A stretch of 62,759 bases of DNA from contig NZ_LSJS01000051.1 in the NCBI RefSeq assembly GCF_001557325.1, forward strand, positions 1 through 62,759, given 5' to 3'. Numbering within the stretch: the first letter of the stretch is position 1; each line of letters opens with the position of its first letter. A program made the position numbers and the translations under genes. Shown here piece by piece: positions 49,047 to 53,693 of this stretch. Origin of the DNA: Erythrobacter donghaensis (GTDB lineage: Bacteria; Pseudomonadota; Alphaproteobacteria; Sphingomonadales; Sphingomonadaceae). The notes below the pieces were generated by a model. The model saw only the letters and a list, made by a program, of their open reading frames with translations, searched no databases and had not been told where the DNA came from.

Positions 49047-50852
49047 TCAGGCTGCGGTCGCGAAGGCCTCGGCAGGGAGCTTCATCATGTATTCGCTGCC
49101 CGCCTCGAGCTTGCGGCGCAGCGCGCCCGCATCGGGGAGGAAGCGTTCGGCGTAGTAGTTGGCCGAGACCAGCTTGGCCTCGTAGAACGCCTTGTCCTCG
49201 GGCGCTTCTGCCAGCTTCGTCAGCGCCACCTTGGCCATCTTCAGCCAGAAGAAGCCGAGCGTCACGATGCCCATGATGTGCATGTAGTGATGCGCGCCGG
49301 CCCCGAGGTGGTTGGGGTTGGTGAAGGCGTTCATCATGAACCACTGCGTCGCCGCCTTCTGCTCGCCCAGCGCCTTTTCGAGGCGCTCGGCGACAGGAGC
49401 GAGTTCTGCCACCTGCTTGGCGGCGGCGATTTCCTCGTCGATCATGGCGAAAAAGGCCTGGATCGCCTTGCCCCCGCCCGCGGCGAGCTTGCGCCCGCAA
49501 AGATCCATCGCCTGAACGCCGTTGGCGCCCTCGTAGATCATCGCAATGCGGCTATCGCGCACGAACTGCTCCATGCCCCACTCGCGCACATAGCCGTGGC
49601 CGCCGTAGACCTGCTGCATGTTGTTGGCGATGTCGTAGCCCTTGTCGGTGCCGTAGCCCTTGATGACCGGGGTCATGAGGCCGATCAGCAGGTCGGCCAT
49701 CTCGCGCTCCTCGGGGGTCTGCGCCTTGTGGGTGAGATCGACCTGGAGCGCACCCCACAGGCACAGCGCCCGCATCGATTCGGTGAAGACCTTGGCGTCC
49801 ATCAGCATCCGGCGCACGTCGGGGTGGACGAAGATCGGATCGGCCTTCGCCTCCGGATCGGCCGGACCGGTCAGCGCACGGCCCTGACGGCGGTCGAGCG
49901 CGTAGGTGACCGCGTTCTGATAGGCGACCTCGGCCTGGGCATAGCCCTGAATGCCGACGCCGAGGCGCGCGGCGTTCATCATGATGAACATCGCGGCAAG
50001 GCCCTTGTTCTCTTCGCCGACGAGGTAGCCAGTCGCCCCGTCGTAGTTGAGGAGGCACGTGGCGTTGCCGTGGATCCCCATCTTCTTCTCGATCGAGCCG
50101 CAGGTCACGCCGTTGCGCGCGCCCGGGTTGCCATTCTCGTCGAGGATGAACTTGGGCACGATGAACAGCGAGATGCCCTTGGTCGAGTCGGGCGCGCCCG
50201 GGGTCTTGGCCAGCACCAGGTGGATGATGTTGCTGGTGAGATCATGCTCGCCCGCCGAAATGAAGATCTTGGTCCCGGTGATCGCATAGGTGCCATCGCC
50301 GTTGGGCACGGCCTTGGTGCGGATCATGCCGAGATCGGTGCCGCAGTGCGGCTCGGTCAGGTTCATGGTGCCCGACCACTCGCCCGAGATCATCTTGGGA
50401 ACGAAGGTCTCCTTCTGCTCCTGCGAGCCCTTGGCGATGATCGCCGCGATCGCGCCGTTGGTGAGGCCGGGATACATCGCGAAGGCCTGGTTGGCAGTGC
50501 CGGTGTATTCCTCGAGCACGAAGCCGAGCACGTGCGGCAGCCCCTGCCCGCCGAATTCCTCGGGCTGGGCGAGCGTGCCCCAACCGCTCTCGACATAGGC
50601 CTGATAAGCCTCCTTGAAGCCCGGAGGCGTGGTGACGCTGCCGTCCTCGTGGCGGGTGCAGCCGTGCTCGTCCCCTGCCTGATTGATCGGCGCGAGCACC
50701 TCGGCGCAGAACTTGCCGGCCTCGTTGATGACGGTCTCGATCATGTCAGGCGTTGCGTTCTCGAAGCCCGGCAGGTTGCCGTAGCTGGCAAGGTCGAGCA
50801 CTTCGTTGACGATGAAACGCGTGTCGCGGGTGGGCGCGGTGTAGGTCGGCAT
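49047..50852 (-). CDS. Acyl-CoA dehydrogenase, DmdC/FadE12-like long form
   Basis: 601-residue FAD enzyme of the long acyl-CoA dehydrogenase group with an extra C-terminal domain. Typical motifs are MNLTEPHCGTDLGMIRTKA, ITGTKIFISAGEHDLT, and VYGGHGYVREWGMEQFVRD with the catalytic glutamate expected in this C-terminal-domain segment. The group includes 3-methylmercaptopropionyl-CoA dehydrogenase (DmdC) and fatty or branched acyl-CoA dehydrogenases, and the substrate cannot be resolved from sequence. It lies 53 bp after a MerR regulator on the same strand, which probably controls it. Confidence 0.9.
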   Translation of the reverse strand: MPTYTAPTRDTRFIVNEVLDLASYGNLPGFENATPDMIETVINEAGKFCAEVLAPINQAGDEHGCTRHEDGSVTTPPGFKEAYQAYVESGWGTLAQPEEFGGQGLPHVLGFVLEEYTGTANQAFAMYPGLTNGAIAAIIAKGSQEQKETFVPKMISGEWSGTMNLTEPHCGTDLGMIRTKAVPNGDGTYAITGTKIFISAGEHDLTSNIIHLVLAKTPGAPDSTKGISLFIVPKFILDENGNPGARNGVTCGSIEKKMGIHGNATCLLNYDGATGYLVGEENKGLAAMFIMMNAARLGVGIQGYAQAEVAYQNAVTYALDRRQGRALTGPADPEAKADPIFVHPDVRRMLMDAKVFTESMRALCLWGALQVDLTHKAQTPEEREMADLLIGLMTPVIKGYGTDKGYDIANNMQQVYGGHGYVREWGMEQFVRDSRIAMIYEGANGVQAMDLCGRKLAAGGGKAIQAFFAMIDEEIAAAKQVAELAPVAERLEKALGEQKAATQWFMMNAFTNPNHLGAGAHHYMHIMGIVTLGFFWLKMAKVALTKLAEAPEDKAFYEAKLVSANYYAERFLPDAGALRRKLEAGSEYMMKLPAEAFATAA

Positions 50853-50905: not shown

Positions 50906-51367
50906 TCAGCGCAGGTCGAGCTTTTCGATTTCGGCGACGAAGTCGGTCAGTTCCTTGATCGAGCTGTCGATGTCGTCGCGCTGCGCCTTCAGCTTGGCGA
51001 TATGCGTGCGGCATTTCTCGATCGTGACACGGCGCTGTTCAACGCGGCCATCGTCGAGGTCGTAGAGGTCGATCATCTCGCGGATCTCGGTCAGCGAGAA
51101 GCCGACGTTCTTGGCACGCATGATCCAGGCGAGCCGCGCGCGGTCACGCTTGGAATAGACCCGGGTGAGGCCGACGCGCGCCGGGCTGATGAGCCCCTCG
51201 TCCTCGTAGAAGCGCAGCGCGCGGGCGGTGCAGCCGAATTCCGAGGTGAGATCGGAAATGGTGAAATGTTCGCGCTCGTGGACATCCGGCCGGTCGAGAT
51301 GCGCGCCGTTGCGGCGCGGTTCGGCGGCGGAATCTGCGGCGGCGGTGGAAGCGGGAGCGGTAGCCAT
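50906..51367 (-). CDS. MerR-family regulator, LiuR-like
   Basis: 153 residues. After a 35-residue variable N-terminus comes the MerR winged helix FTISDLTSEFGCTARALRFY and EDEGLISPARVGLTRVYSKR, then a coiled dimer helix ending KELTDFVAEIEKLDLR. No metal-binding cysteines are visible in the C-terminus, so a metal sensor is unlikely. LiuR-type MerR proteins control branched-chain amino-acid and fatty-acid degradation genes, which fits the downstream acyl-CoA dehydrogenase gene. A TTACGT-rich operator lies 14 bp upstream. Confidence 0.85.
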   Translation of the reverse strand: MATAPASTAAADSAAEPRRNGAHLDRPDVHEREHFTISDLTSEFGCTARALRFYEDEGLISPARVGLTRVYSKRDRARLAWIMRAKNVGFSLTEIREMIDLYDLDDGRVEQRRVTIEKCRTHIAKLKAQRDDIDSSIKELTDFVAEIEKLDLR

Positions 51368-51380
51368 GCCCGCGCTCTAC

Positions 51381-51403
51381 CTTACGTTTACGTGAGCGTC
51401 AAG
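51381..51403 (-). promoter_or_regulatory. LiuR-like operator of the MerR/acyl-CoA dehydrogenase operon
   Basis: Read on the minus strand the site is TTGACGCTCACGTAAACG with TAAG following, i.e. ACGT-centred half-sites (direct TTACGT-TTACGT on the other strand). It resembles LiuR-type boxes (TTGACG...ACGTAAA) and lies 14 bp before the regulator start, overlapping the end of hisI. Autoregulation together with control of the downstream dehydrogenase is the expected use. Confidence 0.55.
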
Positions 51404-51794
51404 TATCGATGCGCCGCAACACCGGCCCGCCCTCGCCCGCGACGACCTCGCGGTAGAAGCAGGCACGCGCTCCGGTGTGGCAGGTGGGGCCGGCGGGCGT
51501 GGCGCGAATCAGGAGAGCGTCCTGATCGCAGTCGGTGAGCACCGCCTCCACGGCGAGGAAATGCCCCGAAGTCTCGCCCTTCAGCCACAAGGCTCCGCGC
51601 GAGCGCGACCAAAAGTGCACCTTGCCGGTCTCGAGCGTCTTTGCGAGCGCCTCGGCATTCATGTGCGCCACGACCAGCACCGTGCCGTCCGCAGCGTCGA
51701 CCACGACCGCGGTCAAGAGCCCCGCGGCATCGAATTTGGGAGCAAAGACAAGGCCCTTCTCGCGCTCTTCGGAAGTGAGGACGGGATCGGTCAC
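51399..51794 (-). CDS. hisI: Phosphoribosyl-AMP cyclohydrolase
   Basis: 131 residues from a GTG at 51794, chosen because GGAG lies 8 bases upstream; a TTG at 51845 is possible. The enzyme opens the purine ring of PR-AMP in histidine synthesis. Signatures are [26 protein letters not shown] in parts ([27 protein letters not shown]), the metal site [12 protein letters not shown] and [12 protein letters not shown]. No other his genes are in the window, so it stands alone. Confidence 0.92.
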
Positions 51795-51859
51795 AAAGGC
51801 AACTCCAGGATAGTCCGAAGGCGGCTCATGCAAGGATTGTTGCAAGCAGACAACAGCAC

Positions 51860-52157
51860 GTCACAAAAAATTGCCCCGTCCAAGGTTTCATCTTCCGCGT
51901 TAGGCAACTCGGTGGAAGAAAGCTTGCGGAGCCTTCGCAAGGGGTTCTCCACCGAACACATGGCACCGCCCGGTGCCGGGTTCAGGGGGTGACCGGACCG
52001 CGTTACTGGCAGCGGGGTGCCAGCGCGACCGGTTGAACGATAGGGACTGGATCCCGGCAGCGAAGTTAGGGGGTCGCTGCCTTGGCTCGAAAGAGCGGAT
52101 CCGCACCGTTTCGTCACGTGGCGCCCGGGGTCGAAAGACCTCGGGCGTTATGTTTTC
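51860..52157 (+). ncRNA. Candidate structured small RNA with intrinsic terminator
   Basis: This fills the 379-bp gap (51795-52173) between hisI and comF, both leftward; no coding frame was supported. Consecutive pairings on the + strand: SL1 51909-51955 (TCGGTGGA/TCCACCGA with inner TTGCG/CGCAA); SL2 51962-51977 (GGCACC/GGTGCC); SL3 51980-52038 (GTTCA/TGAAC, CCGG/CCGG, CGCG/CGCG, CTGGCA/TGCCAG); SL4 52049-52102, a three-way junction closed by GGATCC/GGATCC holding GGCAGCGA/TCGCTGCC and a GCTC-GAAA-GAGC hairpin. A terminator follows. The 5' end is not defined. RNase P, tmRNA, SRP and 6S hallmark sequences were not found. Confidence 0.55.
52122..52157 (+). terminator. Strong rho-independent terminator of the RNA candidate
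   Basis: An 11-bp stem (CGCCCGGGGTC / GACCTCGGGCG, one G-U pair) is closed by a GAAA tetraloop and followed by TTATGTTTTC. The U-rich tail lies on the + strand only, which fixes the direction; no rightward protein gene precedes it. Confidence 0.8.
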
Positions 52158-52173
52158 TACGCAGCGCGCCGGA

Positions 52174-52869
52174 TTACGGATGCGCGAGCTTGTGGTCCTC
52201 ATCCACCCGCGCAAAGCAGGCCACCGCGATCGAGGACGGCGCCGCCCCGGCCAGCGCGGCAAGGCAGGCGCGGCTTGTCGCGCCGCTGGTGAGCACATCG
52301 TCGACCAGCACCACGTCACGCCCCGTGATCCGTGCCGCCGCATCCGGTGCGAGGCGGATCGCGCCGGTCAGCACCCGCTCGCGCTCCTCGCGGCCCAGAC
52401 CGCCGAGGTTGGGTGTGCGCCGGAACCGCACCAGTGCCGCCACCGCCGCCTCGCCCTTGCCCTGCTTTTGCAGCGACTGTGCGAGCAGCGCCGCCTGGTT
52501 GAACCCCCGGCTCCACAGCCGCCAGCGGTGGAGCGGAACCGGCACCAGCAGCGGCGGCGCGCGGTCCGACTCCGGCTCGGGCATCCGCGCCGCGATCAGC
52601 CGCGCCAACAGCCCCGACAGCGCGATCCGCCCCCCATGCTTATAGGCCAGCACGAGCTTGCGCGACGTCTCGTTGTAATAGGTCGCGGCATAGACCGGCA
52701 CGGCATGGCCTGCGACTTCGGGGTGCTCGGGGACCTCGAGCGTGCTCCAGCAGTCGGTGCACAGCCCCGCCTGCGCCGCGACCGCGACCCCGCACGAGGG
52801 GCAGCGCGGCGGATAGATGAAATCCACCAGCGGGGCGAGATGCCGGGCAAGTTGAGCGACCACTGCCAT
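52174..52869 (-). CDS. ComF-family phosphoribosyltransferase-like protein
   Basis: 231 residues. An N-terminal zinc finger with C23, C26, C37 and C40 (PRCPSCG and GLCTDC) is followed by a phosphoribosyltransferase fold whose PRPP-binding loop is VVLVDDVLTSGATSRAC. LLVPVPLHRWRLWSRGFNQAALLA is the family motif. ComF supports DNA uptake in competent bacteria, but many carriers are not known to be competent. The ATG at 52869 was chosen. It is divergent from the methyltransferase gene with 56 bp between start codons. Confidence 0.92.
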   Translation of the reverse strand: MAVVAQLARHLAPLVDFIYPPRCPSCGVAVAAQAGLCTDCWSTLEVPEHPEVAGHAVPVYAATYYNETSRKLVLAYKHGGRIALSGLLARLIAARMPEPESDRAPPLLVPVPLHRWRLWSRGFNQAALLAQSLQKQGKGEAAVAALVRFRRTPNLGGLGREERERVLTGAIRLAPDAAARITGRDVVLVDDVLTSGATSRACLAALAGAAPSSIAVACFARVDEDHKLAHP

Positions 52870-52925
52870 CGCGCGAGTGTCGCATGGCTTGCGCTTCCGA
52901 AGCAAGCGCGGCAGGGCGGCGCGGC

Positions 52926-53693
52926 ATGAACGTCGCAGTCGTCCCCACCATCTTTGCCGAACCCCGCCGCGTGGCCCGCGCGCTGCGCTCGGCCGCAAGG
53001 CTGCGGTCCGGCGCGGATGCCGCGCGCTTCCTCATCGAGGAGATGGCCGAGGACATGATCGAGCGGCTGAGCTTCGTGCGCCATGCCCCGGCGCGCACGC
53101 TGCTGATCGGCGGGGCACCGGCCATGCTTCAGACCCATCTGCGGGAGGGCGGCGGCGAGGTTGCCGTCGACATCTCTGCCAACCCTGCCGAACCGCTGGC
53201 AGGCGCTCCGTATGACTTCATCGGGGTGATCGGCCAGCTCGATGCCGTCAACGACCTGCCCGGCGCGCTGATCCACCTGCGCAATGCCTTGACCCCCGGC
53301 GGCCTCGTTATCGCGAGCTTCGTCGGCGGCCAGAGCCTGCCCGCCCTGCGCGCCGCGATGCTGGCGGCCGAGCCCGACCGTCCGGCGGCACGGCTGCATC
53401 CGCTGGTCGATGCCCGCGCCGCCCCTGCCCTGCTCCAGCGCGCCGGGTGGAAGGACCCGGTGGTCGACACCCACACCCTTGGCGTTCGCTATTCGAGTCT
53501 CGACCGTCTCGTCAGCGACCTGCGCGACCAGGGCCTCGGCAATGCACTGGCCAAGCCCGCTGCGCCGCTCGGCAAAACCGCCCTCGCCCTCGCCCGCGCC
53601 GCCTTCGCCGCGCGCGCCGAGGCGGACGGTAAGGTCACCGAGAGTTTCGAGATCGTCACCCTCACCGGGCGGCGATCCCTCGCCGGAACCTAG
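52926..53693 (+). CDS. Class I SAM methyltransferase-like protein (NDUFAF5/BioC-related)
   Basis: 255 residues. RARFLIEEMAEDMIERLSFV-like helix (here AARFLIEEMAEDMIERLSF) precedes a Rossmann fold with LLIGGAPAMLQTHL in place of the usual acidic GxGxG loop, YDFIGVIGQLDAVNDLPGAL, and the LTPGGLVIASFVGG strand. Its arrangement matches the NDUFAF5-like proteins of alphaproteobacteria, which modify a complex I subunit in mitochondria. The glycine loop is degenerate, so SAM binding is uncertain. The ends of this gene and ppdK overlap by 4 bp. Confidence 0.75.
   Translation: MNVAVVPTIFAEPRRVARALRSAARLRSGADAARFLIEEMAEDMIERLSFVRHAPARTLLIGGAPAMLQTHLREGGGEVAVDISANPAEPLAGAPYDFIGVIGQLDAVNDLPGALIHLRNALTPGGLVIASFVGGQSLPALRAAMLAAEPDRPAARLHPLVDARAAPALLQRAGWKDPVVDTHTLGVRYSSLDRLVSDLRDQGLGNALAKPAAPLGKTALALARAAFAARAEADGKVTESFEIVTLTGRRSLAGT

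Follow-up and report, generated by a model that had tools for sequence, protein, structure and literature searches.

The 62,759-nucleotide stretch of Erythrobacter donghaensis DNA analysed here (the window; Table 1) is likely to contain a free-standing, regulated gene whose product is a trans-acting structured noncoding RNA, about 280 nt long and shared by much of the order Sphingomonadales. By sequence comparison, the gene shows a paired structure with plus-strand bias, an upstream element, its own terminator, mostly one copy per genome and two genomic neighbourhoods. We infer that the gene is transcribed and that its product acts in trans.

Table 1: Features at and around the candidate RNA gene, in window coordinates.
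Feature	Position	Strand	Basis or detail
Structured noncoding RNA, ~280 nt	51876..52158	+	covariation, G-U strand bias, fold z-score, order-wide matches; 5' end inferred
hisI (phosphoribosyl-AMP cyclohydrolase), flanking	51399..51815	-	PF01502, E 2.7e-32; start uncertain, ~51793-51806
comF-like gene (DZR_2 + phosphoribosyltransferase), flanking	52174..52869	-	PF18912 + PF00156
18-bp palindromic element TGTTGCAAGCAGACAACA	51838..51855		aligned in relatives; probable regulator site of the RNA promoter; no strand assigned
Conserved A-rich box CAAAAAAT (often CAAAATC in relatives), possible -10 region	51864..51871	+	alignment
5' domain: stem CGGUGGA 51910-51916 / UCCACCG 51948-51954, GCAAGGGG inside	51910..51954	+	read from sequence
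Hairpin GGCACC / GGUGCC	51962..51977	+	one or more two-sided changes in 3/5 predicted pairs
Conserved motif UUCAGGGGG (GGUUCRGGGA-like in relatives)	51981..51989	+	alignments; missing in some, e.g. L111
Middle hairpin CUGGCA-GCGGGG-UGCCAG	52006..52023	+	three pairs with 3-4 two-sided changes each
Conserved strand GAUAGGGAC (GAUGAGGGAU in many relatives) ahead of junction	52039..52047	+	alignments
Three-way junction	52049..52102	+	P1 52049-52054/52097-52102 enclosing P2 52056-52062/52075-52081 and P3 52085-52088/52093-52096
AGGGGG in P2 loop	52068..52073	+	GGGG invariant in 21 A2 rows; predicted unpaired probability 0.95 in window
Conserved strand UUCGUCACG directly before terminator	52110..52118	+	alignments A1, A2, A5
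Intrinsic terminator: stem 52120-52132/52137-52149, GAAA loop, U-rich tail	52116..52158	+	possible outer pairs 52116-52118/52151-52153

Locus and paired structure

The whole candidate gene, with its upstream element, occupies positions 51838-52158 of the plus strand and lies between leftward hisI and leftward comF. As the initial annotation had stated, no rightward gene is found on either side. A cis-regulatory leader or riboswitch precedes the gene it controls and shares its strand, and here both neighbours in the window are on the opposite strand. The annotation had placed the RNA at 51860-52157; the RNA does lie there, but the conserved unit begins further upstream, at the palindrome. Its statement that no other gap exceeds 300 bp could not be confirmed: a crude ORF map gave six more such gaps, although this map was itself poor (it favoured a false plus-strand ORF over comF). 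A small ORF starting from the AUG at 51960 was dropped, since relatives including L008 and L005 do not have this start codon. A gene for a MerR-family regulator (window 50906-51367, minus strand) lies directly downstream of hisI, and is adjoined by an acyl-CoA dehydrogenase-like gene at 49047-50852, named by eye.

The plus strand of 51860-52160 folded at -143.8 kcal/mol, compared with a shuffle mean of -119.9 (z -4.25; 0 of 100 shuffles as good), and the minus strand gave a z-score of -3.87, again with 0 of 100 shuffles as good. The region was thus confirmed to be highly structured, and the three-way junction proposed for it is present and backed by compensatory changes. Which strand carries the RNA cannot be read from these z-scores, but it can from the count of G-U against A-C cells: the non-Watson-Crick cells in P1-P3 comprised 27 G-U, 1 A-C and 4 others, which points to the plus strand. 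The polarity of the terminator and the conserved upstream element point to the right as well, suggesting the same direction of the RNA.

Covariation was assessed in two clades. From 55 extracted sequences, 41 entered alignment A1, from which 21 3'-domain sequences of Erythrobacteraceae were picked for consistent alignment of P2 and P3 (A2). Across P1, P2, P3 and the terminator, 15 of 33 pairs in A2 showed two-sided changes (P2 7/7, P1 3/6, P3 2/4) and 97.6% of cells were paired. None of 500 shuffles did as well on even one of the five measures, and the most that a slid structure paired was 49.3%. Alignment A5 contains 17 Novosphingobium-type sequences of 31 domains extracted, including L013, L204 and L039, which were kept though apparently misaligned; here 16 of 29 pairs carried two-sided changes and 91.4% of cells were paired, with 0 of 500 shuffles as good on four measures, 2 of 500 on further pair types, and at most 45.2% for slid structures. 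Both structures were written by hand from individual sequences, which favours the proportion of cells paired and, to a lesser degree, the two-sided changes, and relatedness among the sequences can inflate the shuffle control. A joint MAFFT alignment of both clades (41 rows) misplaced P2 and P3, its fold recovering only P1 and the terminator with 9 of 18 pairs two-sided; the clades were therefore aligned separately. RNAalifold on 14 full-length sequences gave 73 pairs, 25 with two-sided changes, with the middle hairpins included and the 5' domain little supported. This domain (51910-51954) is the least supported part of the structure, and predicted folds pair it differently. The covarying pairs whose absence the initial annotation had named as a refutation are accordingly strong in two clades aligned independently of each other.

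The rightward intrinsic terminator claimed earlier was found at 52120-52149, with its GAAA loop and U-rich tail and with compensatory changes in relatives (two-sided in 3 of 16 pairs in A2, where the lower stem is invariant). The GNRA cap holds for the window copy and some relatives, but other relatives have different loops. A terminator pattern scan did not list this terminator, presumably because its tail fails the T-run rule of the scan. When lolE-linked loci (e.g. L175) were compared with hisI-linked loci, compensating changes were seen in the terminator stem (GGCGGCCGG/CCGGCCG versus GGCGCCCGG/CCGGGCG), and the preceding UCGUCACG was fixed.

Upstream element, distribution and neighbourhoods

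The palindrome occurs in relatives as TGTTGC...CACA variants, up to a perfect TGTGGC-N6-GCCACA in L245. In a scan of 71 loci, 4 of which have no UCGUCAC segment, 57 of the other 67 had the palindrome pattern at a distance of 130-340 bp upstream of UCGUCAC, whereas 0.036 per locus was expected from how often the pattern occurs across these loci. Among the 10 misses, L231, L232, L236 and L238 carry near-variants outside the pattern, and for L231 and L232 the scan was anchored on the wrong TCGTCAC. A stricter pattern, TGTTGCA-N5-ACMACA, occurred 0-2 times per genome in eight genomes, seven of them with a match, and its reversed control did not occur.

No sigma-70-type promoter was found by a consensus scan of 51000-53000. 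TTGC-N19-CAAAAT would be an unusually long promoter spacing, and we know of no familiar promoter spacing that the upstream element matches; it was therefore left as an operator-like element, which is probably the site of a DNA-binding regulator. Transcription would start near 51876-51880. Its own control element, a terminator and a conserved structure are what a standalone trans-acting sRNA gene has, and all three are found here, with no sigma-70 consensus promoter.

Second copies of the palindrome were seen elsewhere. One lies inside an apparent glutamate synthase frame (by eye) and is probably a chance occurrence, and one pattern copy, in L165 (G004 C6:981915-981932), is about 135 bp upstream of an apparent TonB-dependent receptor gene (by eye). 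The stricter pattern also occurs exactly for a second time in L168 (1501-1518; G131) and in L167 (G189), in both cases next to a BCCT (betaine/choline-type) transporter gene, assigned by Pfam for L168 and by eye for L167. The BCCT-adjacent copies are possibly sites of the same regulator.

Relatives were collected from a HisI protein scan of genome contigs, the best 80 of 581 loci being taken. A blastn comparison showed the region, at 74-88% identity, upstream of hisI in nine loci of Erythrobacteraceae type (L001-L009); in two others the terminator was shared. The query also included the start of hisI (95-120 bp), which gave no match in L004 and L006 and a weak one in L007, while the RNA part was 79-86% identical in these loci. 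A family-wide DNA search detected the RNA region in 40 of 249 genomes, and a profile search of the collected loci found the region upstream of hisI in further relatives, including Novosphingobium.

Two covariance models were then used at a threshold of E 0.001 per genome, with rough calibration and strict filters: R1, built from A2, and R2, built from 6 lolE-linked sequences. R1 matched 57 of the 68 sources supplied, one weakly (L032), with no match in L012, L015, L018, L020, L021, L022, L025, L029, L036, L037 and L044; in other Sphingomonadales, a number of hisI loci (among them L012, L020, L029 and L036) thus lack the RNA on the upstream side of the gene. Among 396 sampled Sphingomonadales genomes, R1 matched 210 (a single match in 206) and R2 131 (a single match in 127), giving a union of 274 with an overlap of 67. 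R1 matches weaker than E 1e-6 numbered 56, of which 46 were in genomes also matched by R2. Neither model matched the remaining 122 of the 396 genomes, where homologues may have been missed.

In a class-wide sample of 385 genomes, each model gave 7 matches. Among the genomes matched, G007, G052, G025, G113 and G101 had been sampled for the order as well, and all the convincing matches are in genomes shared with that sample. In G741, G922, G620, G647, G719 and G863 there was no hisI, comF or lolE beside the match, and G620, G647, G719 and G863 also had no proS. The matches in G741, G620, G647, G719 and G863 are ordinary hairpins or terminators in sequence, and the match in G922 has neither the flanking genes nor CGTCACG nearby. 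Nothing convincing was therefore found outside Sphingomonadales with R1 or R2 among these 385 class genomes, a sample of unspecified make-up.

Ninety genomes were inspected for neighbouring genes: 70 R1 genomes (the 30 best and 40 lower among the matches listed) and 20 of the 64 R2-only genomes. The arrangement hisI-RNA-comF was present in 64, all of them R1 genomes; in the other 26 the RNA has lolE or proS-lolE as its neighbour and, for the most part, still has the palindrome. The six non-hisI R1 loci, as well as the weak R1 match L211, have a gene for a LolC/E-type permease nearby, with proS between in L182, and lolE was nearby in all 20 R2-only genomes, accompanied by proS in 10. The RNA, its terminator and usually the palindrome thus stay together while the neighbours change, indicating an independent transcription unit. 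In the lolE-linked loci L170, L176 and L188, the other neighbour of the RNA is a gene for a TonB-dependent receptor (PF00593 in L188; by eye in L170 and L176).

Conserved segments and alternative readings

Four segments are strongly conserved, namely UUCAGGGG, GAUGAGGGA, the P2 loop AGGGG(G), and UCGUCACG directly before the terminator. The rows of A1, A2 and A5 were located by CGTCACG, so the invariance of UUCGUCACG in these alignments is partly by construction. In the 90 covariance-model loci, TCGTCACG was present in 84, and TCGTCAC followed by a GC-rich stem was present close to the model match in 86, this pattern giving nothing in L187, L234, L237 and L241. The corresponding segments of the lolE-linked type are GGUUCGGGGA, AAGGGGGCUGACGA (AUGGGGGCUGACGA in L211 and GCUGACGC in two) and UCGUCACG, and in this type UCGUCA can pair with UGACGA, as seen in alignment A6.

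The window copy contains four AGGG motifs. Over 55 sequences including the window, AGGG occurred 3.51 times per RNA compared with 1.75 in base shuffles of the same stretch, and 53 of the 55 were above their own shuffles. A count over slightly different stretches gave 3.55 compared with 1.74. The motif recurs at separate positions, as UUCAGGGG, GAUGAGGGA, AGGGGG and GAGGGA. In the window, the P2 motif is the one predicted clearly free, the other three having unpaired probabilities of 0.26-0.40. Over the 55 sequences, the mean predicted unpaired probability was 0.40 for AGGG motifs, 0.34 for the UCGUCAC segment and 0.34 for all bases; on these predictions the P2 loop is the only conserved segment that is clearly exposed. 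An anti-Shine-Dalgarno mimic was dismissed as an explanation for the family at large, since only close relatives retain the GGUGA part; AGGGGGUGA of the window fits, with one wobble, what we take to be the complement of the 16S 3' end.

The enrichment and the separate positions of the AGGG motifs would also suit a protein-titrating decoy, in which repeated AGGG(A/G) motifs sequester a GGG-recognising protein. Decoy RNAs of the CsrB/RsmZ type are standalone multi-hairpin RNAs with repeated GG-containing motifs and an intrinsic terminator, and the RNA described here is like them in all of these respects. It is unlike them in that most of its AGGG(A/G) motifs are not predicted to stand free in a hairpin loop, its core is a three-way junction and it has no Rfam match. 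CsrA (PF02599), the protein that the motif would fit, was detected in none of 15 genomes by a search that matched 3 of 14 control genomes, and a CsrB-type decoy acting with CsrA was therefore rejected. A decoy for some other protein, for which we know of no candidate, is possible but rather unlikely.

A cis-acting element of hisI or comF, whether a leader, an antisense or a 3' UTR structure, might account for the two genes flanking the RNA in 64 of the 70 inspected R1 genomes, and the palindrome, being just upstream of hisI, could serve both divergent units. However, the RNA is kept, mostly with its palindrome, in the 26 genomes that have no hisI or comF nearby, and the existence of two different genomic neighbourhoods makes it less likely that the RNA acts in cis on a gene next to it. 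In addition, the G-U bias assigns the RNA to the strand opposite to both genes, and it ends in its own terminator. We regard this explanation as very improbable.

The size, mostly single copy and order-wide conservation of the RNA would likewise fit a housekeeping RNA (6S RNA, tmRNA, RNase P RNA or SRP RNA) so divergent that Rfam missed it. When Rfam 15 (4227 families) was searched, there were no matches over the gathering cut-off in the whole window, and at up to E 5 the region 51600-52400 gave only a chance snoRNA match inside comF. Eleven homologous loci had no match at the gathering cut-off; in eight further loci only a neighbouring tRNA (L182) was over the cut-off, with two sub-threshold chance matches. 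The Rfam match that the initial annotation had named as a possible refutation was thus found neither for the RNA in the window nor for the 19 homologous loci. 6S RNA (RF00013) was located elsewhere in 7 of 8 genomes, 4 of them over the cut-off, and alpha_tmRNA (RF01849) and RNase P RNA (RF00010) elsewhere in 3 of 3 genomes each. None of the three models matched at the RNA locus, where there was no ARAGORN call either, in agreement with the earlier view that the RNA is none of these; for SRP RNA, also excluded there, the sole basis is that no Rfam SRP model matched in the window region. The RNA resembles 6S RNA in being widely conserved, structured and usually found as one match per genome. The shape of 6S RNA is one long bulged rod, whereas a three-way junction and hairpins are found here. 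A divergent housekeeping RNA is accordingly hardly credible. An intergenic palindrome repeat or other DNA-level element would explain the dense inverted repeats, but it is just as implausible in view of the mostly single match per genome with either model, the compensatory changes, whose G-U cells favour one strand, the conserved unpaired strands and the polarised terminator.

Zymomonas mobilis belongs to Sphingomonadales. Zms sRNAs have been described in this species (PMC7064620, PMC6970203); hisI and lolE are absent from the available parts of both texts, and in the available part of PMC6970203 the single word starting with "pros" stands in a reference and not as a gene neighbour. The RNA may be identical with a Zms sRNA, as the two were compared by description and not by sequence. 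SuhB of Sphingopyxis granuli TFA is, according to the available text, a trans-encoded sRNA that acts with Hfq (PMC6563040). The RNA described here would likewise be a sphingomonad trans-encoded sRNA, but SuhB is 61 nt long compared with about 280 nt, and the Rfam suhB family had no match in the window or the 19 homologous loci. No description of an RNA at hisI-comF or lolE-proS was found in the available text of the literature searched, including PMC11109978, PMC2864571, PMC8632094, PMC7064620, PMC6970203, PMC6563040 and PMC7471390; supplements, subscription journals and the motif collection 10.1093/nar/gkx699 were outside the search. The reading of an unassigned structured RNA that runs into a terminator is therefore supported by covariation and by the lack of an Rfam match, and the RNA is probably an undescribed new family within a known kind, the standalone structured bacterial RNAs.

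Possible mode of action and significance

A regulated, trans-acting RNA of this kind could work as follows. A DNA-binding regulator would act at the palindrome, and the RNA would work through its conserved segments, that is, the AGGG motifs, the P2 loop AGGGGG and UUCGUCACG. These segments could pair with C-rich sites in mRNAs or in sRNAs with C-rich loops, probably together with Hfq. The mechanism that we tentatively favour, ahead of a protein decoy, is one in which the G-rich segments and UCGUCAC pair with RNA partners that are rich in C. The conserved segments and the palindrome make the target, the partner protein and the regulator directly testable.

A more speculative reading, which we think improbable, is that the RNA is an order-wide sponge of a new class, single-copy and operator-controlled, whose several conserved AGGG(G) sites are held apart by covarying helices. 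It would titrate a regulatory protein that binds GGG or, alternatively, alphaproteobacterial sRNAs through their C-rich anti-Shine-Dalgarno loops. If this were true, sphingomonads, taken to lack CsrA, would possess a global post-transcriptional switch in place of the Csr system.

Among the sphingomonads are oligotrophs, phototrophs and well-known degraders of pollutants, and to our knowledge few sRNAs have been characterised in them. The size of the RNA, its presence in about seven of ten sampled genomes of the order, usually once per genome, the control site that moves along with it and the lack of any Rfam match make an important regulatory role likely.
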